Notes under the pieces: model-generated | Database searches by the model: none | What the model saw: the letters and a program-made list of their open reading frames with translations, nothing else | What the model was told of the DNA's origin: nothing | Shown here: one piece after another, positions 10,130-20,117 of the stretch | Position numbering within the stretch: position 1 is the stretch's first letter | How the letters are laid out: every line of letters starts with the position of its first letter | From: a virus | Strand: one strand, 5' to 3' | Virus record (IMG/VR): IMGVR_UViG_3300037262_000111 | Location: 1 to 24,251 of that record | DNA: 24,251 nucleotides | Translations under genes and position numbers: made by a program

Positions 10130-10432
10130 ATGCACATCATCTCACTTAAAATGCTTCGCGAATTCTGGCAAAAACACCCCGAAGCTGAAAAATTATTACG
10201 CGAATGGCACACCATTGTTGAGCATGCGGAATTCAAGGACTTTAACCATGTTAGACAGTTCTTCAATTCGGCCGACTATGTACCGCCTTACACAATCTTT
10301 GACATTGGCGGGAACAATTATCGGGTGGTGGTGCTCGTTCGATATAAATTCAAAAAAGTCTATGTCCAAAAAGTGATGACGCACCGTGAATATGATGAGT
10401 GGAACAAACTTTACAGGAAAGGCAAGGTGTAA
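10130..10432 (+). CDS. higB: HigB-type mRNA interferase toxin
   Basis: This 100-residue protein matches the HigB toxin family of the RelE/HigB fold, ribosome-dependent endoribonucleases. The recognisable pattern is MHIISLKMLREFWQKHPEAE at the start, AEFKDFNHVRQFF at residues 33-45, then NYRVVVLVRYKFKKVYV and the C-terminal MTHREYDEWN. The core basic residues (R64, R70) and H85 are present. Length is close to E. coli HigB (about 104 residues). No ribosome-binding site can lie upstream, because the predicted transcript begins at about the ATG. It is followed after two bases by higA, in the toxin-first order usual for hig systems. The toxin looks intact. Confidence 0.93.
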   Translation: MHIISLKMLREFWQKHPEAEKLLREWHTIVEHAEFKDFNHVRQFFNSADYVPPYTIFDIGGNNYRVVVLVRYKFKKVYVQKVMTHREYDEWNKLYRKGKV

Positions 10433-10434
10433 TT

Positions 10435-10863
10435 ATGCAAGCAATACAACCCAAATTTAACATCAAAGCGATTCAATCGTCCTGGCAGAAATTGGACGCT
10501 ATCGCGCACCTGCGGCCAATTCACAACGAAGAAGAGTATGACCGCATGGTGATGTTGATGAACTTTTTATTGGATGCTGCGGGAGAGGATGAAGACCATC
10601 CACTGTCCGGTTTGCTGGATTTGGTTGGCGATCTGGTTTCAAGGTATGAACAGGAACATTTCGTTATTGACCGGGCGGAGCCAAAAGACGCGCTGCGCTT
10701 TTTGATGGAGGCGCGAGGATTAAAGCAGGAAGAATTAGCCGGGATTATTCATCAGAGCAACCTGTCGGCCATTCTTGCCGGTAAGCGGAAAATTAGTGCG
10801 GCTCTGGCGGGGAAATTGGGTAAATTTTTTGGTATTAGTCCGGCGGTGTTTGTACCGAACTAA
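10435..10863 (+). CDS. higA: HigA antitoxin with C-terminal helix-turn-helix
   Basis: This 142-residue protein resembles E. coli-type HigA (about 138 residues). The N-terminal 80 residues (including EEYDRMVMLMNFLLDAAGEDEDHP) are the toxin-binding part, and residues 90-135 form an XRE-type helix-turn-helix (LRFLMEARGLKQEELAG, then SNLSAILAGKRKISAALAGKLG). The ATG at 10435 is chosen over an in-frame upstream ATG inside higB because AAGGTG at 10424-10429 is well placed. HigA should bind HigB and, alone or as a complex, repress the palindrome before higB. It ends 21 bases from the convergent kinase gene, with no clear terminator between. Confidence 0.93.
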   Translation: MQAIQPKFNIKAIQSSWQKLDAIAHLRPIHNEEEYDRMVMLMNFLLDAAGEDEDHPLSGLLDLVGDLVSRYEQEHFVIDRAEPKDALRFLMEARGLKQEELAGIIHQSNLSAILAGKRKISAALAGKLGKFFGISPAVFVPN

Positions 10864-10884: not shown

Positions 10885-13203
10885 CTATTTCATAACGCGA
10901 TTCGATGGCCCAACCAGATCGCTTAACTTCTGAGCCAATTGATCTTTGCGGACCGGCTTTTGCAAGAAACTAGAAAACAGCTTGCGCTGATCCGGAGAGA
11001 TGTTTGTCGGCTCAGTGGCGCTTATCCAAATTATTGGTGTTTTCTTATTTGGACCATCCGTGTTTTGCACTTTAGTCGCAACAGCAAGTCCGTCCATGTC
11101 CGGCATATATATGTCAAGCAAAATGGCATCGTAGTGTTGCCGACTCAATTGGTCAACGGCATCCATCCCAGACGCAGCGACATCACATTCATAATCAAGC
11201 GCCTGAACTACAGACTGAAGCACAATGCGTACATCCTCAGTATCATCCACAAGTAAGATTCGATGGTTCGGTGCACTTTCAACTGAATGAATTGACTGAT
11301 CATTGACTCTGTCGGCACTCTCGACAGGGATGTGGACATCAATTATTGTCCCTTTACCCAGTTCCGAAGTTATCTTGATCGTTCCATTCAATGCATCAAG
11401 CGATTTTTTTACAATGGTTAGGCCCATGCCTACCCCTTCATGGCGACGTGTGCTGCTTTGATCGATTTGAACGAATGGTTCGAAGATTAACGGGAAGTCC
11501 TCCGCGCTTATGCCAATTCCGGAATCCTCAACTCGAATTTGTAACGCACAACTGGTACCGGTCGCATAACGCAATTGAATATTTACAATCCCTTGATCAG
11601 TATATTTAATGGCGTTTGAAATTAAATTATTGACTATCTGTTGAATTCTAAATACATCAGACCGCACGTTGAAGTTGGAAGATTCGATATTTGAAGTTAG
11701 CTTGAGTCCTTTATTTTCCGCCACTTCTTTGTAATCGTTTGCAATTTGATTGATAGCTTCAGATGCATCGAATTCACCCACGCGTAATTTCATTTTTCCC
11801 GACTCTAGTGAAGCGTAGTCAGTGAGATCTTTCATTTGCTTTTCCAGATACGCCGCCGCCAGATTCATTCGATTTATTATCTCGATTTCTTTGGGTTGCT
11901 TCAATTTTTCAGACAGCAAATCAATGGAGGAAGTAATGGTCTGAAGTGGCGTTTTCAATTCATGACTTACCATGCCGAGAAAGGTGTTTTTTGCGACCGC
12001 TGTTTCTTTCTCAATGATTTTCAATCGGTACGCCAAGGCAAGCGAAAAAATTATTGCCTCCCATACTGCGCCAATTTGAATCGCGTAGACAGTAAACCAA
12101 GTGGAGGGCAATAAACCTATTTGACGCAGGCAAAATACAATGATCATTAAGATGAACACGATCCATCCAGCGCTGTATACCTTAGCTGGCGCGTAACCTT
12201 GCTTTGACCTTACCAATCCCCCTAACAGCAAAAACGGAACCATGAACAAGGCGAGAAAATTCAATGCAAAATAAGGATTGAACGGCAGAACGACCGCGCA
12301 TATTCCACCTATGACAAACAACCACTGACAAGCTATAAGACAGCAATCTAACCAGCGAATGGATTGATTTAGAGAGAGGAATTTACGACCAAAAAGAATC
12401 ATCCCATGATTCAAAGCATAACCAAAAACAGCAAATAGTTTTTCATAAAATGTGTTCAGTTGGAACAGGAGGGGAACGAAACCATTCATGTACACAAACA
12501 GCCCAATAAAGCAGCCCAAGTAGTATACGTAATACGCATACAGACGACTACGTAAATAGATGCAGATCGCCAAGTTGTAAAACCACATCGCAGCCATCCC
12601 GCCAAAGAATAGCCCGAGCGCCATTTGTGCATTGTGAACATTTTCCAAAATACCTTTTAAGCTCGACCACGACAAATCAATATTTAGCGCATGTCCTTGC
12701 GGAGCGTATCGCACGTAGTAGACCGCCGTATTTGTTTCGGGAGTGGGAATCTTGAATAGGTAGTTATGGATATTAAAGGCGCGCTTGCTGGCAGGTTCTT
12801 CTTCAGACAGCTCTGATTTTGAATAGCCTGACTTGACTGGATAAAACAAACTTAGATTGCCAACGTGCTCATAATTCTGAGTCAGAAACCAATACGGGTC
12901 TGCATAGTCATGAAAATCAATTGAGAATCGAATCCACAAAACCTTTTTTTTGTATCCGTACCCCAAATTGTCTTTCAGGAGAGGCTTAAATTGTCCTGCA
13001 TTTCCGCTCGCAACTTGATCAATGGAGAATGTGCCATCCTCATCATCCAGATATTCAAGTTGCATCGCCAACGCCTGTTTTTGATCACCAATCGGTGTAA
13101 AAATTGGTAGTTCGCTTACTGCCTTGCAAAAGCTACTCTGCCAAAACAAAAAAAATGACAATAAGACTAAAGAGTTGCAAAATATTTTTTTTAATTTAGG
13201 CAT
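10885..13203 (-). CDS. Hybrid sensor histidine kinase with 7TMR-DISM sensor and receiver
   Basis: This 772-residue membrane kinase has an N-terminal signal peptide or anchor (NSLVLLSFFLFWQSSFC) and a periplasmic 7TMR-DISM extracellular-2 type domain at about residues 30-180. Seven hydrophobic segments follow at about 195-395, then a kinase core: H-box SHELKTPLQ with H414, N-box NNLISNAIKY, G1 DSGIGIS and G2 GVGMGL. A C-terminal receiver has acidic pair D653/D654, phospho-acceptor D697 and Lys749, so it appears catalytically complete. A TTG at 13212 is an alternative start; the ATG at 13203 is used, although neither has a clear ribosome-binding site. 7TMR-DISM sensors often bind carbohydrates, but this ligand is unknown. 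No HPt domain is seen. It is the last gene of a three-gene operon. Confidence 0.9.
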   Translation of the reverse strand: MPKLKKIFCNSLVLLSFFLFWQSSFCKAVSELPIFTPIGDQKQALAMQLEYLDDEDGTFSIDQVASGNAGQFKPLLKDNLGYGYKKKVLWIRFSIDFHDYADPYWFLTQNYEHVGNLSLFYPVKSGYSKSELSEEEPASKRAFNIHNYLFKIPTPETNTAVYYVRYAPQGHALNIDLSWSSLKGILENVHNAQMALGLFFGGMAAMWFYNLAICIYLRSRLYAYYVYYLGCFIGLFVYMNGFVPLLFQLNTFYEKLFAVFGYALNHGMILFGRKFLSLNQSIRWLDCCLIACQWLFVIGGICAVVLPFNPYFALNFLALFMVPFLLLGGLVRSKQGYAPAKVYSAGWIVFILMIIVFCLRQIGLLPSTWFTVYAIQIGAVWEAIIFSLALAYRLKIIEKETAVAKNTFLGMVSHELKTPLQTITSSIDLLSEKLKQPKEIEIINRMNLAAAYLEKQMKDLTDYASLESGKMKLRVGEFDASEAINQIANDYKEVAENKGLKLTSNIESSNFNVRSDVFRIQQIVNNLISNAIKYTDQGIVNIQLRYATGTSCALQIRVEDSGIGISAEDFPLIFEPFVQIDQSSTRRHEGVGMGLTIVKKSLDALNGTIKITSELGKGTIIDVHIPVESADRVNDQSIHSVESAPNHRILLVDDTEDVRIVLQSVVQALDYECDVAASGMDAVDQLSRQHYDAILLDIYMPDMDGLAVATKVQNTDGPNKKTPIIWISATEPTNISPDQRKLFSSFLQKPVRKDQLAQKLSDLVGPSNRVMK

Positions 13204-13218
13204 GGTAGTCAAGTTTGA

Positions 13219-13691: not shown

Positions 13692-14537
13692 TCAATTCAA
13701 ATCAAGCATTTTCATTACCTCTGCGGCGAGTATGGGAAGTCGAACTGGCTTTTCCTGACAAATGACATCAAAGCGCCGCATGAGACCAGCGACCTCCGTG
13801 TCATCAATTTTTCCAGTTAACATCTGCCCAGTCAAAAGTATTATTGGCGCTTCTTGTTGCCCTCCTTTTCGTATGAGATTTAAAAGCACCTCCGAAGTCT
13901 CACTCCCAACAAACCAATCCAAAATATAACCATCAAAGCCATCAGCTTGAATTGCTGCAACGGCAGCGGGAATATCGTAAAAAGCTTTTGATTTAAATCC
14001 AATGCCAATTAAATAGTCGCGAATGTTGTCGGCAGTTCCCGGATCATCATCAACCACTGCGATTGTCAGATTGTGAATTCGATCAGGATAAATCTCTATT
14101 TTTTCAACATTAAACAGTTCAAACTCGACTGGTGCATCCTTTGATTCGATTACATGCCATTCACCATAACGCTCGAACGCAACAAAGCTCGTTGGTTTGT
14201 TTTTCAGCACACCGATCTGGACGGTGCAAGGAAAATCTCTCCCTTTGATATTCAGCATCGCTTCATGTACAGAATTGGTTGATGCTTGCGCCGAGCCTTC
14301 CACCACTAGTGAATCCAAAAGTGTTCCAGGCCTCTCGTTGAAATGATTTGCCACAAGGATAATCTGAGAAACAGTCCAAGGACTGTCGCCGTTCATTTTC
14401 CGATGGGCTGCGGAAAAACCTAAGTTCAAAATGCGGCCAAGTTCGCTAGTTTGTTTGCGCTCCCCAATACCATGCCGCTCCATCAACTCACGAACCGTTT
14501 TAGCAATAGATTCGGATTCTATTTTCTCAATTGACAT
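13692..14537 (-). CDS. Response regulator with N-terminal BetR-like HTH and C-terminal receiver
   Basis: This 281-residue protein has a helix-turn-helix at about residues 10-75 (VRELMERHGIGERKQTSELG, then LGFSAAHRKMNGDSPWTVSQI), resembling the BetR domain. A middle beta-rich part at about 90-150 follows, then a receiver domain at about 157-280. Receiver residues are complete: D163-D165, phospho-acceptor D207 in YILDW, T236 and K263 in QEKPV. The order is reversed from most response regulators, where the receiver is N-terminal. It starts at ATG 14537 with no strong ribosome-binding site. It is first in the operon with the lipocalin-like and kinase genes, so the kinase is the probable phosphodonor. 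Targets are unknown. Confidence 0.88.
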   Translation of the reverse strand: MSIEKIESESIAKTVRELMERHGIGERKQTSELGRILNLGFSAAHRKMNGDSPWTVSQIILVANHFNERPGTLLDSLVVEGSAQASTNSVHEAMLNIKGRDFPCTVQIGVLKNKPTSFVAFERYGEWHVIESKDAPVEFELFNVEKIEIYPDRIHNLTIAVVDDDPGTADNIRDYLIGIGFKSKAFYDIPAAVAAIQADGFDGYILDWFVGSETSEVLLNLIRKGGQQEAPIILLTGQMLTGKIDDTEVAGLMRRFDVICQEKPVRLPILAAEVMKMLDLN

Positions 14538-14550
14538 TTAATTTTTCTAT

Positions 14551-14592
14551 AAGTTATTGGTTTATTGACAATGATCCAAACCTTTAAAGGTT
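14551..14592 (-). promoter_or_regulatory. Candidate promoter and palindromic operator of the regulator/kinase operon
   Basis: On the - strand, TTGGAT (14574-14579) and TAACTT (14551-14556) are spaced by 17 bases. Directly upstream of the -35 is the perfect 14-bp palindrome AACCTTTAAAGGTT (14579-14592). The gene starts 14 bases after the -10. The promoter boxes are only moderate matches. The palindrome could be a binding site for the helix-turn-helix regulator encoded by the first gene, but this is inference. Confidence 0.38.
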
Positions 14593-14978
14593 GTGATATT
14601 ACTAAAAATATAGATACGTGAACATCTAAAATTATGTTCAATTGCCACCATTAAATTCATTTCTTACGGGCGACGAATAAATTGGTTCACTAAATACTAT
14701 CCTTCCTTCAAATTCAAAATTTGATCCATCATTAGAAAATTCACCCTACACAAGTTGCCTGATAAGACAAATTCTAACAAATATAAATAATAACATCGCT
14801 TACCAAGCAACTATAAGATGGAACAAATTAATATAATGTCTTTACAATTGAATATTTAGATTCTAAAATTGCTTATCAAGACAGCATTTAATTGTTGTAG
14901 GTGACGACGCCGACCAGCAGTAAAGTCGCCAAATCGATCCAGTTCCAAGTACATGTTGTTCACAAGTGAAAGGAAACC
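14593..14978. other. AT-rich intergenic region between divergent genes
   Basis: No gene is visible in these 386 bases between the - strand regulator operon and the + strand ogr gene. Base composition is strongly AT-rich up to about 14880 and then becomes mixed. The region holds a good + strand promoter at 14841-14869 and a roughly 100-base leader before ogr. TTCAC-AA-GTGAA at 14959-14970 is a short inverted repeat next to the ogr ribosome-binding site. Confidence 0.6.
14841..14869 (+). promoter_or_regulatory. Sigma70-like promoter for ogr
   Basis: TTTACA (14841-14846) and TAAAAT (14864-14869) are separated by 17 bases, each matching the consensus at five of six positions. The expected transcript begins at about 14876 and has a leader of about 100 bases before the ATG at 14979. 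It would express ogr independently of the tail operon, which the inverted regulator/kinase operon separates from ogr. Confidence 0.6.
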
Positions 14979-15236
14979 ATGAGCGTCATAAGCATTCCAT
15001 GCCCTCACTGCAAAAGTCGTGTGCTAGCGAAAAAAAGCCGCACAATGAATTGTCTGATGAAAGAAATCACCTACGTGTGCCAGAACCCCGATTGTGGTCA
15101 CGTGTTTGTGGCTTCCTTAGAAGTATTGCGCACGCTATCACTGTCTTCCATGCCGAATCCTCAAATTCGTATCAATATTTCTCAACATGTACGCCAAGGC
15201 GCTGCCAATCAGCTGGCCTTTTCCCAAAACGATTAG
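14979..15236 (+). CDS. ogr: Ogr/Delta-type zinc-finger late transcription activator
   Basis: This 85-residue protein carries the Ogr/Delta zinc-binding pattern: C8-x2-C11-x22-C34-x4-C39 (CPHCKSR, then CQNPDCGHVF). The spacing is identical to P2 Ogr (about 72 residues). These proteins bind upstream of late promoters at TGT-N12-ACA sites and recruit RNA polymerase through its alpha subunit, switching on head, tail and lysis genes. AGGA at 14971-14974 precedes the ATG. In P2, ogr directly follows D. Here the toxin-antitoxin and regulator/kinase genes lie between them, but ogr keeps the same orientation. It might serve this prophage or, as in P4, act for a satellite. Confidence 0.93.
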   Translation: MSVISIPCPHCKSRVLAKKSRTMNCLMKEITYVCQNPDCGHVFVASLEVLRTLSLSSMPNPQIRINISQHVRQGAANQLAFSQND

Positions 15237-15305
15237 GAGCCCCCGCGTGATCCATCTACCGAATCCACCGTAGCCTTCCCCCCCGCTGTAAAACCCAGTG
15301 ATCTT

Positions 15306-15335
15306 CATGCCTTGAAACAGGCATGTTGATTTTTT
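15306..15335 (+). terminator. Probable rho-independent terminator after ogr
   Basis: CATGCCT and AGGCATG form a 7-bp stem around the loop TGAAAC, followed by TTGATTTTTT. It lies 69 bases after the ogr stop and 24 bases before the next small ORF, so it would separate ogr from the replication genes or attenuate read-through. Confidence 0.55.
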
Positions 15336-15358
15336 GCACCCTGAAAAAAGGAACCACC

Positions 15359-15517
15359 ATGCAATTAACTAAGCATCAGCAGCGCAAACACCTTCGCAAA
15401 ACATTCAACCCGGATCGCCTGGCCGTCATTCTCAGGCTCTGCGTTATCGATGTCATGTACGGCTTTGTTTTTCTGTTCCCCATGCTGGCTGCGCCACTTG
15501 GTCTGGTAAAGGATTAA
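15359..15517 (+). CDS. Small hypothetical protein, possibly membrane-associated
   Basis: This 52-residue ORF starts at ATG 15359 with AAAAGGA in a good position; the frame is open upstream to 15323 but crosses the terminator. The N terminus is basic (KHQQRKHLRKTFNPDR), and residues 20-48 are hydrophobic (LAVILRLCVIDVMYGFVFLF, then PMLAAPLGL), which suggests one membrane helix. I recognise no family. The strong ribosome-binding site and the close spacing to the next small gene make it a likely real gene. Confidence 0.55.
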   Translation: MQLTKHQQRKHLRKTFNPDRLAVILRLCVIDVMYGFVFLFPMLAAPLGLVKD

Positions 15518-15521
15518 AGCC

Positions 15522-15704
15522 ATGAACGAATTGGAAGAGTTATTCACACTTGTACCTGATTTTCGCCCCGTTATCCTTGGAATCATCCTGAGAGAATATC
15601 GTGAATGCCAAAGGCAGGGCTTTTGTTGGGCTGCGCATTTACTAGAGAAAGAGCTGCTGTGCCATTTTCCCGAGATCGTCGATGGCATTGAGCGCAAACA
15701 ATAA
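15522..15704 (+). CDS. Small hypothetical phage protein
   Basis: This 60-residue ORF starts 4 bases after the preceding stop, with AAAGGA at 15508-15513. The sequence contains acidic and aromatic positions (MNELEELFTLVPDFRPVILG, then REYRECQRQGFCWAAHLLEK) and is probably helical. No family is recognised. Its place before the replication gene suggests an early accessory function. Coding potential is supported by spacing and the ribosome-binding site only. Confidence 0.5.
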   Translation: MNELEELFTLVPDFRPVILGIILREYRECQRQGFCWAAHLLEKELLCHFPEIVDGIERKQ

Positions 15705-15718
15705 TCACGCACGACTGT

Positions 15719-15834
15719 CGCGTCGCCCAGCTTTATAAACGGCGACGCGCTCCGTCCGGTCAGCCCAACCAAATTTCCCTTATTTCATCTAAGGGAAGAC
15801 TTCAACAGGCATGCTGCCAAAGACTAGGCGGCAT
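15719..15834 (+). other. Three consecutive stem-loops before the replication gene
   Basis: Three inverted repeats lie one after another. The first is CGCGTCGCC/GGCGACGCG (15719-15727 and 15741-15749, 13-base loop). The second is TTCCCTTA/TAAGGGAA (15775-15782 and 15790-15797, 7-base loop). The third is ATGCTGCC/GGCGGCAT (15811-15818 and 15827-15834, one G-U pair, 8-base loop). None has a following T-run. The region fills most of the gap between the small ORF and the primase start, and may be a structured leader, an RNA gene or part of a replication origin. Confidence 0.55.
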
Positions 15835-15843
15835 TGATCGGCA

Positions 15844-18627
15844 ATGAATTGCCCACGTTATAAAGTGAATCCGATGGCATCGATCCAACAATTAAAAAAA
15901 AGAATCAACCTGCACGATCTGGCGGCACGGCTCGGCATGGTGCGCGGTAAGGGCGACAAAGCCAATTACCACAGTCCGCACCATCGAGATAAATCCCCTT
16001 CGATTGCTATAGACACAGATGGTAAAAGCTTCCGTGATTACAGCGCAGACGGAGTACCTTACGCCACAGGTTCAATTATCGATTTGCTGATGTATGTCAA
16101 AGGACTCCCCGATGTCGGTGATGCCATGCGATGGTTACATGAAGAGTATGCGATTCCATTTGACCTACCTTCCGAGGTGACACCGCCGCCCGAAAAATCA
16201 CGAGCTGAATTCATTGCTGATCGCTGCCTGATTGATCCGTCGCCGGTGCGCCCCTACCTCACTGGCCGCGGCATTAGTGAAAGCGTAATTGATGCAGCCA
16301 TTAGGAACAGAACGTTAGGCTTTAATAATTGGAAATCCAGCAAAGTGGAAGAAGGCCAAGTCGGTTACGGCGGCGATGCGGCCGCATTCATTGTGCGTCA
16401 CCCGCTCACTTCTGCAGTATTGGCCGTTGACCTTCGATACTTCAATCCCGGTTTGAATGGCGACGTTAAAACACAGACACAAGGTGACAAAGATGGTGTC
16501 ATCTGGACGTCCAACCCTGCACGCATAAAGAGCGCCAAACAAGTCTACATTGTTGAGTCAGCCATTAACTGCTTGTCGATTGAAACGGCTGATCCGTTTG
16601 CTTGTGCAATTGCATTGCGCGGACTGGGTAATGTTGATTTGGTCGATTGGTCATTCTTGCGAGGCAAACAAATTATTCTTTGTCTGGATAACGACATGCC
16701 GTTTCCTGAACAACATCGTCTGGCCGGTCAACGTCCAGGACCGGAAGCAGCATGGCGTTTAGTCGAACGACTAACCTCATTGAATATTGGTGTGATGTTG
16801 GTGGATCAATCGGAATGGTATACCAAAGATGGTGCGCCATTAAATGATGTGAATGATGTATTGGTGGCGCGCGACGCCAGCCAATTAAAGGTATGGCTGT
16901 CCAAGCTGGAACCGTGGCTAATTGCCGGATTGCGAGGCGAAGAAGGGCAACAAGGGCGCAAACGCATTTATCTTCCAGCGCATGATTTTGCTCAGTATTG
17001 GAAATTCCGCGTCCGGCCAGACTTCACGACTTACATCGGCAAGGTCGATGAACAATCGTGTGGCGATGGCGAGGTAGTCAAAACGCCCATCTATCAAGAT
17101 TTGGCCGGCTTCCGTGTCGCAGCGCTCAGTCGGGTTTCGATTGCCAGCGCGTCGTCCACCATGACCGGCGATCCGGATCAACAACCGGCTGTCTTTTTCG
17201 CTGTTTCTGTTCAGACCCCGCGTCATGGCGCCACACTTCAACGCCGCGTCATGCAGGATGAACAGTTGCACAATTTGGATGGCTGGAAGCGATTTGGCCC
17301 CGTGTGGAATGCAGGCGCATTCTCTCGCATGATCAATATTCTGGAGCGTACCGCCGATCTGGGCGCGCGCCAGGCTGCTAACTTCGTCGGCTTAGCATGG
17401 CGTGATGGCAAACTCATCGTCAACGAAGGAGCAGACTGCTACTTTACGGAACCAGAGAAACAATGCCCGTACCATAATCTGACCTTCCCAACCGGCACCG
17501 CGCGCAACGCCCGAGAAGTTATTCACGCATTTCAATCCACCTTTAAAAAGAATGCTGCGTTGCTGCCTTTGATTTGGTCGCTGGGAGGCCATTTAAAGGC
17601 GCTCCTGGGCTTCTGGCCTCACATGATGATTCAGGCCGACAAGGGTAGCGGCAAATCAACGCTGATCAAACGTTTGGAGCGCGCAATCGGCATGACGATG
17701 TTTTCGGGACAATCGCTCAATACCGAGTTCCGTTTGCTCACGTCGATTAGTCACACATCGCATCCAGTTGGCTGGGAAGAGTTATCAGCGCGTCGGCAAG
17801 ACGTGATTGATAAAGCTGTCGGTATGCTGCAGGAAAATTATCAATACACGATTACGCGCCGTGGTTCCGAGATGACTGAATATCTGCTTTCCGCTCCGGT
17901 ACTGCTGGCCGGTGAAGATGTGCCAGTACGTTCCCTGCTCGGTAAGATTATCCGCACCGATCTGACGGGCAAGAAGGGGCCGCTCATCCCGGACGACCTG
18001 CCGCGTTTTCCTGTCAAGGAATGGCTGACCTATCTCTCCGGATTATCAAAAAAAGAAGTTCTTAAACGGTATGCTGAAATTCAGACAGTGTGTCTGCATG
18101 CCTCACGCGCCAGCGGCGAAGATGAAGGCGCTTTGCGCATGTCAGGTAACTATGCCGCGATATATATGGCGTGGCTCTATCTGTGCGAATTTGCTGGCAT
18201 CGATACCGGCCAGGGCAACGTTGATCACGATTTGTTTGAGGAGATGAACCGGCACATCAGTGAAACCAGCGCCGACCGGGAACCATGGGTCTGGATTATG
18301 GAAATCGCCTTATCCGAAATCGCCGCAAATCGCTTTGCGTATCCATACTCATGGCAGCAAGAACCAACCCCTGCACTCCTGATACGCACCAGCCACATCA
18401 TGGATCACATTTCAACGACACCTTCGCTTCGTGAGAAATGGAACGGTCTGCCGGTAAAGAGCGATCGCGTGTTTAAAAAGCAAATGATCAACGCGGGAGT
18501 GATACCCGCAGACCAAAGCTGCGAACGCACCATCAACATGCAGCGCGTCTCGAATTTGCAAATTATTCCGATTGAAAAGCTAAGGCAGTTTGGACTGGAT
18601 GCCACACCTACGGCGCGTCTTCAATGA
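15844..18627 (+). CDS. Replication protein: Toprim primase and helicase-like ATPase
   Basis: This 927-residue protein likely starts replication of the element. The N-terminal part (residues 15-105, with LKKRINLHDLAARLGM, YHSPHHRDKSPS and GSIIDLLMYVKGL) has the CHC2 primase pattern, but the usual zinc Cys residues are absent. A Toprim domain follows: E238 in YIVESAINCLS and D282/D284 in ILCLDNDMPF. The C-terminal half is a helicase-type ATPase with Walker A ADKGSGKST (K604), the acidic pair E645/E646 in VGWEELS, and a later LLAGEDVPV. A second ATG at 15874 is also possible, and neither start has a strong ribosome-binding site. It could act like P4 alpha, though the domain order is not the same. 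Confidence 0.85.
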   Translation: MNCPRYKVNPMASIQQLKKRINLHDLAARLGMVRGKGDKANYHSPHHRDKSPSIAIDTDGKSFRDYSADGVPYATGSIIDLLMYVKGLPDVGDAMRWLHEEYAIPFDLPSEVTPPPEKSRAEFIADRCLIDPSPVRPYLTGRGISESVIDAAIRNRTLGFNNWKSSKVEEGQVGYGGDAAAFIVRHPLTSAVLAVDLRYFNPGLNGDVKTQTQGDKDGVIWTSNPARIKSAKQVYIVESAINCLSIETADPFACAIALRGLGNVDLVDWSFLRGKQIILCLDNDMPFPEQHRLAGQRPGPEAAWRLVERLTSLNIGVMLVDQSEWYTKDGAPLNDVNDVLVARDASQLKVWLSKLEPWLIAGLRGEEGQQGRKRIYLPAHDFAQYWKFRVRPDFTTYIGKVDEQSCGDGEVVKTPIYQDLAGFRVAALSRVSIASASSTMTGDPDQQPAVFFAVSVQTPRHGATLQRRVMQDEQLHNLDGWKRFGPVWNAGAFSRMINILERTADLGARQAANFVGLAWRDGKLIVNEGADCYFTEPEKQCPYHNLTFPTGTARNAREVIHAFQSTFKKNAALLPLIWSLGGHLKALLGFWPHMMIQADKGSGKSTLIKRLERAIGMTMFSGQSLNTEFRLLTSISHTSHPVGWEELSARRQDVIDKAVGMLQENYQYTITRRGSEMTEYLLSAPVLLAGEDVPVRSLLGKIIRTDLTGKKGPLIPDDLPRFPVKEWLTYLSGLSKKEVLKRYAEIQTVCLHASRASGEDEGALRMSGNYAAIYMAWLYLCEFAGIDTGQGNVDHDLFEEMNRHISETSADREPWVWIMEIALSEIAANRFAYPYSWQQEPTPALLIRTSHIMDHISTTPSLREKWNGLPVKSDRVFKKQMINAGVIPADQSCERTINMQRVSNLQIIPIEKLRQFGLDATPTARLQ

Positions 18628-18699
18628 CGTGCCAATTCGATTGAAACAAACGACAACCATATTCAGATGCCACACTAACCAGTAAAGGATATAACACCA

Positions 18700-18906
18700 A
18701 TGGACAAAAATCTCACATCGCACAACAAACTGATCGGATCGGCGGAGGTGATGCAACGGATTGGGATCAGCTACACCACTCTCTGGCGACTTGTGAAAGC
18801 ACAGAAAATCCCAACACCCAGAAAAGTTGGCAGCCTTAACCGCTGGCTGGAGGCTGACATTGAGCGTTATATTTCTCAACCAACCACGCCGACCACCATG
18901 CCATGA
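18700..18906 (+). CDS. alpA: AlpA-family DNA-binding regulator
   Basis: This 68-residue protein matches the AlpA/prophage regulatory family, with a MerR-like winged helix: LIGSAEVMQRIGISYTTLWR, then KIPTPRKVGSLNRWLEADIE. AlpA-type proteins control integrase expression or excision in cryptic prophages, and the related Vis of P4 has excisionase-like roles. AAAGGA precedes the ATG. Its 3' end overlaps the convergent integrase gene by 71 bases, so transcripts of the two would be complementary there. The nearby int promoter region holds an inverted repeat that is a candidate site for it. Confidence 0.88.
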   Translation: MDKNLTSHNKLIGSAEVMQRIGISYTTLWRLVKAQKIPTPRKVGSLNRWLEADIERYISQPTTPTTMP

Positions 18907-19990
18907 GTTCGCGTCGTTGCGGCAAATACTCTGCCCTGTTGTATGCCGCCCGAACTGCATCTTTTTCTTTATGTGCAAGCTGTCGCTCAATTACATCGCC
19001 ACTAAAAGGCGAGTACTGATTGAGCACAGAACTTGCCAGAGCACGAAACCCATGCACCGTCATTCTTCCGCGATAGCCCAGTCCGTAGAGAGCAAAAAGG
19101 AATGTGTTTTCACTGACTGGATGACCTGGCCTAAGAGGAGATTCAACGACCAGCCCGCTCCCACCAGAAAGGGCCTTTAATTCCTCCAAAATTGCCAATA
19201 CCGGCTGACTGAGCGGCACAACATGCGGCACGCGCATTTTCATCCGTTCGGCCGGAATCACCCATACCTGGTCGTCCAGTACCAGTTCATCCCACCGCAT
19301 ATTTCGCAATTCGTTAAACCGGACAAATGTGTGGGCGATCAGAAGCAATCCCAGCCTCGTGACAGGTTCTTGATAAGTCATGATTGCGCTTAGCAGTTGC
19401 CCCACTTCCTCGTGTGGAATCGATGGCATTGGTTTGGATTTTTTCTTCGGTAATACCCGTGACAATTTGGCTGCGCCATGCGACTCAATCACACCGATGT
19501 CCAACGCGTAGTTAAAAATCATATCTATGCGACCGCCGACGCGAGATGCTGTCTCCGGAATATGCGACAGTTTTTGTACCACGTCTACCAACAGCGTTCG
19601 TGGTATCGAGTCAATCGGAAGTTGGCCGATATAGGGGAACACATGCTCGCGCAAGGTGTTACAGACTTGAATCTGATGTTTAGGATTAGACAGGGTGGGC
19701 AGCTTAATTTCGAGCCATTCGTCCGCCACGGTTTGAAACGTCGGCATGCTGGACTTTCCAGTTTCAGATTTGCGCAACACATTCAACTTGCGGGCTTCGG
19801 CCAAGCTGATATCGGGATATCGCCCGTACGTGATAGTTTGTTGCTTGCCTGCGGCTGAATAATTGGCGCGCCAGGTTCGATTTCCAGTGGGAGCTATATG
19901 GAGATACAGTCCAGCCCCATCGGTTAGCTTATACGGCTTGTCCTGCGGCTTGGCGGCTTCAACGGTTTTTACGGTCAGTGGCATAGTCAT
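18836..19990 (-). CDS. int: Tyrosine integrase of P4 type
   Basis: This 384-residue site-specific recombinase has the N-terminal DUF4102 arm-binding domain (residues 1-85, with LTDGAGLYLHIAPTGNRTWR and TITYGRYPDISLAEAR). The catalytic part includes R224, K251, H313 and R316 in VHGFRALA, H340 in RQLAHKE and the nucleophile Y350 in AAYNRAEY. The set appears complete. The gene starts about 160 bp from the 3' end of tRNA-Ser, the usual target arrangement of this family. An ATG two codons inside the reading frame is an alternative start. The 3' end overlaps alpA. Proteins of this type often integrate islands and satellites as well as phages. Confidence 0.95.
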   Translation of the reverse strand: MTMPLTVKTVEAAKPQDKPYKLTDGAGLYLHIAPTGNRTWRANYSAAGKQQTITYGRYPDISLAEARKLNVLRKSETGKSSMPTFQTVADEWLEIKLPTLSNPKHQIQVCNTLREHVFPYIGQLPIDSIPRTLLVDVVQKLSHIPETASRVGGRIDMIFNYALDIGVIESHGAAKLSRVLPKKKSKPMPSIPHEEVGQLLSAIMTYQEPVTRLGLLLIAHTFVRFNELRNMRWDELVLDDQVWVIPAERMKMRVPHVVPLSQPVLAILEELKALSGGSGLVVESPLRPGHPVSENTFLFALYGLGYRGRMTVHGFRALASSVLNQYSPFSGDVIERQLAHKEKDAVRAAYNRAEYLPQRRELMAWWSAWLVEKYNAQCQPPASG

Positions 19991-20093: not shown

Positions 20094-20117
20094 AAAACGG
20101 CCTTAAAAGGCCGTTTT
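20094..20117 (-). terminator. Rho-independent terminator downstream of tRNA-Ser
   Basis: AAAACGGCCTT and AAGGCCGTTTT are 11-bp perfect arms around AA. On the - strand the hairpin is followed by a run of five T and lies 33 bases past the tRNA CCA end. It could also work in the other direction because of its symmetry. Confidence 0.8.

Follow-up and report, generated by a model that had tools for sequence, protein, structure and literature searches.

A folded untranslated leader before the Toprim primase gene of a P2-like prophage, and a terminator-like hairpin recurring downstream of ogr

Gene organization of the primase locus

The window analysed here, a virus contig of 24251 bases, carries P2-like tail genes, ogr, two small ORFs, a Toprim primase gene and an integrase gene. 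The Ogr/Delta-like zinc-finger gene (ogr) lies at 14979..15236 on the plus strand, and downstream of it on the same strand come a terminator-like hairpin (15306..15325), the counterpart of one that recurs in relatives, and then TTGATTTTTT. The two tiny ORFs that the initial annotation placed ahead of a series of stems are present, both on the plus strand, as ORF1 (15359..15517, 52 aa) and ORF2 (15522..15704, 60 aa). ORF1 is similar in DNA to locus L049 (79% over 67 nt, spanning the ribosome site and the start), and for ORF2 no relatives were found. An untranslated gap on the plus strand (15705..15873) separates the ORF2 stop from the conserved start of the primase gene (15874..18627, plus strand; Toprim_3; PHROG 5629), and beyond this lie an excisionase-like gene (18700-18906) and, on the minus strand and beside tRNA-Ser, the integrase gene (18836-19990). 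This places the element in the presumed early replication operon, in a prophage of P2-like type.

The PHROG 5629 match covers nearly the whole primase, which is 58-64% identical to its counterparts in 19 Burkholderia phage records, such as AP3, KS5 and KL3, and 54% identical to that of one Microcystis phage, these being the 20 matching records of 50,697 searched. L049 has the closest primase found among the matches listed, at 83% identity, and the Kup protein of the host is 72% identical to Kup of Herminiimonas contaminans, the genome of locus L002. AP3, KS5 and KL3 are P2-like Burkholderia phages of the Peduoviridae with primases 63-64% identical to that of the window; they share with it the order ogr, small ORFs, primase (PHROG 5629/Toprim_3), and AP3 also has the hairpin after ogr. 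All three differ from it in that a gene ends 2 nt before the primase start and the folded leader described below is absent (see also PMC3091744).

A folded leader between ORF2 and the primase gene

Three perfect or near-perfect stems of 9, 8 and 8 bp had been proposed at 15719-15834, and both their coordinates and comparison with shuffled sequences confirm that the stem-loops are real, in a fold far beyond chance. On the plus strand, stem-loop 1 (15719..15749) has perfect 9-bp arms (15719-15727/15741-15749) around a loop of 13, stem-loop 2 (15775..15797) perfect 8-bp arms (15775-15782/15790-15797) around a loop of 7, and stem-loop 3 (15811..15834) arms of 8 pairs including one G-U (15811-15818/15827-15834) around a loop of 8. 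An outer stem missed in the initial annotation (15756-15762/15835-15841; 7 bp, CCGGTCA/TGATCGG, with one G-U) encloses a GCC/GGC arm with stem-loop 2, plus stem-loop 3, in a plus-strand three-way-junction domain (15756..15841) that is flush, with zero unpaired bases at the joint.

Perfect stems of at least 8 bp with loops of 3-15 number two in 15705-15873 against a mean of 0.02, and two together occurred in 0 of 2000 dinucleotide shuffles. The folding energy of 15705-15843 is -51.5 kcal/mol (z -5.0, matched by 0 of 200 shuffles); the junction domain alone also reaches z -5.0 (0 of 1000), and 15719-15834 reaches z -4.35. Among 536 sliding windows of 139 nt along the record the leader is the most extreme fold, outranking those over tRNA-Ser and over the spacer between integrase gene and tRNA. 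As a DNA strand it folds too (z -4.2), and its minus strand folds less significantly (z -3.1). In a longer stretch (15705-15935, z -2.6) the three hairpins stay and the outer stem gives way to longer-range pairs; with ORF2 RNA included the outer stem all but vanishes (probability about 1e-5 to 1e-4) and 15625-15633 pairs with 15761-15769 in its place, a duplex that is not significant alone (38 of 500 shuffles as good). Since stem-loops 1-3 hold whether or not ORF2 RNA is present (pair probabilities 0.66-1.0) while the outer stem is replaced, the hairpins are robust and the outer stem depends on context.

The leader is non-coding. The gap has an off-frame coding score and no family match, and the open frame that crosses it (15692-15844) scores -0.170, against an off-frame mean of -0.167 and a true-frame value of 0.169 +/- 0.101 (minimum -0.088); the controls ORF2 (-0.021) and ogr (-0.027) are low too, yet above that minimum. 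A hidden gene in this frame, whose stop (15845-15847) overlaps the ATG at 15844, was rejected, as it has no ATG, GTG or TTG start, scores off-frame and yields a translation with no family match. Within the leader there is also an 8-codon ORF (15811-15837) with a Shine-Dalgarno (SD)-like stretch about 12 nt upstream (anti-SD pairing -5.3 kcal/mol).

The primase start and its accessibility

Relatives were compared at 128 loci, one search contributing its best 80 of 135, and 4 that were too short or matched too late were dropped. In 120 of the remaining 124, among the matches listed, a start codon stands exactly at the equivalent of 15874, and in 1 of 124 at that of 15844. The conserved primase start is thus 15874, not 15844, and the fold ends 32 nt upstream of it. 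The stems accordingly do not lie directly before the start, as had been supposed: stem-loop 3 ends 39 nt and the outer stem 32 nt before 15874. The further remark that the primase lacks a strong ribosome-binding site holds for this start, anti-SD pairing 5' of it being weak (-1.8 kcal/mol, vs -5.4 to -5.6 for ogr, ORF1 and ORF2).

To open the region from -20 to +12 around 15874 takes 6.1-7.9 kcal/mol in each of four contexts and 9.5 kcal/mol once the leader is removed; the non-conserved start at 15844 is buried (18-21 kcal/mol). Because 15874 opens cheaply with the leader and less so without it, the leader does not hide the conserved start. Of the translational control suggested initially, a general form is hence possible, and the simple form in which the start is hidden is unsupported.

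Comparison with related loci

Among the matches listed, 97 of 124 relatives (36 of 58 after dereplication) have an ORF of 60 aa or longer whose end lies no more than 30 nt upstream of the primase start, so that coupling of such an ORF to the primase is usual and is missing here. No comparable fold was found at the leader position in any of 58 dereplicated relatives (z from -2.6 to 2.2), and stems before the primase were not in excess in 60 (10 perfect stems of at least 7 bp observed vs 12.3 expected). A blastn search with 15522-15873 in the upstream stretches of relatives gave, beyond self, a best match at E 2.8; with 15240-15873 in their loci, the leader was unmatched and only L049 (15318-15383, at the start of ORF1; E 2e-8) and a chance match to L139 appeared. 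L139 was also the only match in 392 genomes of the family of genome G001, and its 28 nt were rejected as a leader homologue, since they fall beyond the leader and within unrelated sequence. Phages and plasmids gave no match to the leader. The slot between ORF1 and primase varies among loci, and in L049 it holds only a 30-aa ORF.

Searches by structure gave a similar picture. Exact patterns for stems 2 and 3 had no matches in viral contigs; the hairpin-1 pattern occurred in six, all with flanks unrelated to the window, and the junction pattern in one unrelated contig, and these were discarded. The motif TCAACAGGCATGCKG is found in 44 contigs, with primase and ogr only in those of L050/L051 (as L161/L160). 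A covariance model built from the window sequence recovered no sequence but its own from 66+73+45 sources, where the next match had E 0.2, and none from 148 genomes; this is weak evidence of absence because a single-sequence model is insensitive to diverged structure. Since relatives share neither its sequence nor its fold and mostly have an abutting ORF instead, the leader occupies a variable slot as an orphan, and from these comparisons it appears to be specific to this prophage lineage.

A hairpin downstream of ogr recurs across the group

The hairpin at 15306-15325 sits about 400 bases upstream of the leader fold. Directly 3' of ogr, a hairpin with a T-tract occurs in 81 of the 93 loci with ogr among the matches listed, or 33 of 39 dereplicated ones against 2.7 expected, and in 0 of 39 for a control stretch inside the primase gene. 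Its Burkholderia consensus reads CCCCTCGCATCGTGCC-N-GGCGCGAGGGG-T-rich-GCC-GAAAAAAGGAG-ATG, and examples are seen in L011 (3648-3714) and L147 (2238-2280).

Of the 34 sequences in alignment A2, 21 served for the covariation analysis and 13 were left out for inserts, divergence or poor fit (the window, L049, L050, L004, L007, L008, L014, L020, L027, L038, L059, L060 and L147). In these 21 sequences the outer stem is 97.8% paired and one of its pairs changes between C-G, U-A and G-C (7 cells, 0 of 500 shuffles); the count of pairs with two-sided changes is one, a number that 478 of 500 shuffles also attain. A second, inner register, which the outer one partly excludes, is 100% paired with no two-sided changes. 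The model from the 21 sequences recovers seven left-out loci at E 0.0017 or better, L014, L027 and L038 not being in the search; it matched L049 (E 0.34) and the window (E 0.47) at the right place, not significantly, and did not recover the hairpin of L050. The post-ogr hairpin recurs in most of the relatives, with some covariation.

To our knowledge, how replication is controlled and started is unworked in those P2-like phages that have a Toprim primase in place of P2 gene A. The window offers one testable structure at the primase gene. More useful is the terminator-like hairpin that recurs across the group after ogr, ahead of the replication genes, and predicts regulated read-through. For AP3, a single factor-independent terminator is reported in the accessible part of PMC5247547, which gives no position for it. 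In the accessible portions of the literature on ogr with terminators and this replication module, including PMC3091744, no description of the post-ogr hairpin was found, which is not proof of absence.

What the leader may do

We tentatively favour, at less than even confidence, a structured untranslated intercistronic mRNA spacer that would compact the gap after ORF2 and keep the weak primase start accessible. The leader is non-coding, folds beyond chance and lies 5' of a start in an operon whose gene order suggests that it is transcribed. In the transcript, 117 of the 169 nt of the ORF2-primase gap would fold into stem-loop 1 and the three-way junction, with about 52 nt outside helices. Such compaction would hold the weakly marked start of the primase gene open and close to the stop of ORF2, for re-initiation or standby binding, and the spacer would stand in for the direct coupling apparently employed by most relatives. 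Pairing of ORF2 RNA with the leader, only when ORF2 is untranslated, could moreover make primase expression depend on ORF2 translation. Against a spacer, removing the leader in silico shifts the opening cost of 15874 only slightly (from 6-8 to 9.5 kcal/mol), and against its switch element, the ORF2-leader duplex does not stand out from shuffles when taken alone. Nor is a role as RNA singled out, because the DNA strand folds almost as significantly. It is very improbable that the junction is a full translation-sensing switch, in which translated ORF2 would allow junction and primase, untranslated ORF2 RNA would pair with 15761-15769 and open the junction, and AACAGGCATG may act on the post-ogr terminator; if true, that action would link replication to operon read-through.

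In another reading, a cassette slot of variable content holds a remnant or a neutral insertion, with a fold without function in this phage; we regard this as a serious, if rather doubtful, alternative. No similarity was found in the relatives searched, the 392 family genomes, phages or plasmids, the ORF1-primase slot differs between loci, and the leader holds a 12/13-nt copy of the right arm of the post-ogr hairpin that could mark a recombination joint; three intact stems, two of them perfect, and a flush junction are, however, not expected from decaying sequence. A place in a replication origin, where extruded or single-stranded hairpins would serve initiator or primase loading as do the pRN1 stem-loop or RSF1010 ssi, is unlikely, although the leader adjoins the primase gene and folds as DNA too. 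RSF1010 ssiA and ssiB are stem-loops next to a primase-bearing replication gene. In pRN1, according to the accessible part of PMC4234260, stem-loops beside such a gene, as here, are required for replication and functional when moved, and pRN1 is a fair precedent because its stem-loop is unconserved in sequence. The same source has pRN1 relatives keeping the stem-loop at the same place, whereas here the relatives show none there beyond chance, either by the count of stems given above or by fold (none of 58 with z below -2.7). Perfect stems of at least 9 bp are frequent up to 700 nt downstream of the primase gene (18 in 17 of 77 dereplicated loci vs 3.3 expected), but the window, one of the 77, has no such stem and those of relatives may be terminators. 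Several direct repeats near the replication gene, bound by the replication protein, mark a P4-type origin; at the settings used, no iteron family of at least 3 copies was found in 14500-18900, and the leader has no AT-rich tract or clear skew switch. L049, for all its 83% identity in primase, has only the 30-aa ORF in that place.

The stems might instead mark the 3' end of the upstream transcript or its processing, acting as terminator, stabiliser or RNase site, and so set the small ORFs apart from the primase; stable hairpins directly 3' of ORF2 and a terminator-like site on the minus strand (15797-15775) would fit such a role. This is improbable: an intrinsic terminator pairs a GC-rich stem with a U-tract, and on the plus strand of 15705-15873 none follows any of the three stems, while the minus-strand site has a poor tail. 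The P4-type immunity RNA raised in the initial annotation, a processed leader RNA that would pair with the nascent transcript and cause termination, is highly unlikely and finds no support. Phage P4 (CI RNA, seqA/seqC) offers a likeness in the accessible text of PMC4825925, having a structured untranslated RNA 5' of a Toprim-type replication gene and a short motif repeated up- and downstream. Here AACAGGCATG is common to leader and post-ogr hairpin, with its only exact copies in the window at 15804 and 15316, respectively; the best 13-nt match between the two is 12/13, reached by 0 of 500 leader shuffles in a post hoc test whose two regions were picked once the repeat had been noticed, and part of the leader copy is base-paired. 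L050/L051 carry CAACAGGCATG inside their post-ogr hairpin, and among 147 loci it occurs only there and in L129, which is the window. The sharing of AACAGGCATG is only suggestive, and unlike P4 immunity as that text has it, the leader has no Rfam match (the whole window gave two tRNAs only at gathering thresholds, and 15600-15950 one chance match at E up to 10), no promoter-like site on either strand and no significant seqA/seqC-like pairing, that possible with the terminator arm being only 7 bp by eye; its place in the operon, downstream of three ORFs, is also wrong.

Other features of the prophage and its relatives

Some Burkholderia prophages carry a GC-rich inverted repeat of the type GTGCGCCGATGCGCGCAGCA(A/G)TCGGCGCAC about 80-115 nt after the primase stop (L007, as a variant, L008, L011, L072 and L114), which forms part of the excess of strong stems downstream of the primase gene; those stems may be terminators or something more. 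L049 (3558-4585) has two consecutive ogr-like genes 5' of its primase gene with, by eye, a small helix-turn-helix-like ORF in between.

In the window, a HigB-like toxin gene (10130-10432, plus) followed by a helix-turn-helix gene (10399-10863, plus) is likely a toxin-antitoxin pair. The repressor position is occupied by a gene for a BetR-domain protein (13692-14537, minus) with a receiver-like C-terminus (Response_reg 24.9 bits, below the cut-off), near that for a hybrid histidine kinase with a 7TMR-DISM sensor (10885-13212, minus). Relatives of the BetR-receiver protein occur in 12 of 392 genomes; of 10 such loci fetched, 5 also have a similar kinase and 0 have primase or ogr within ~1.5 kb. 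The protein may link the prophage with two-component signalling, or it may be cargo. In the spacer between integrase gene and tRNA-Ser, a perfect 10-bp hairpin (AAAACGGCC/GGCCGTTTT, 20094-20117) is, by eye, terminator-like on both strands.
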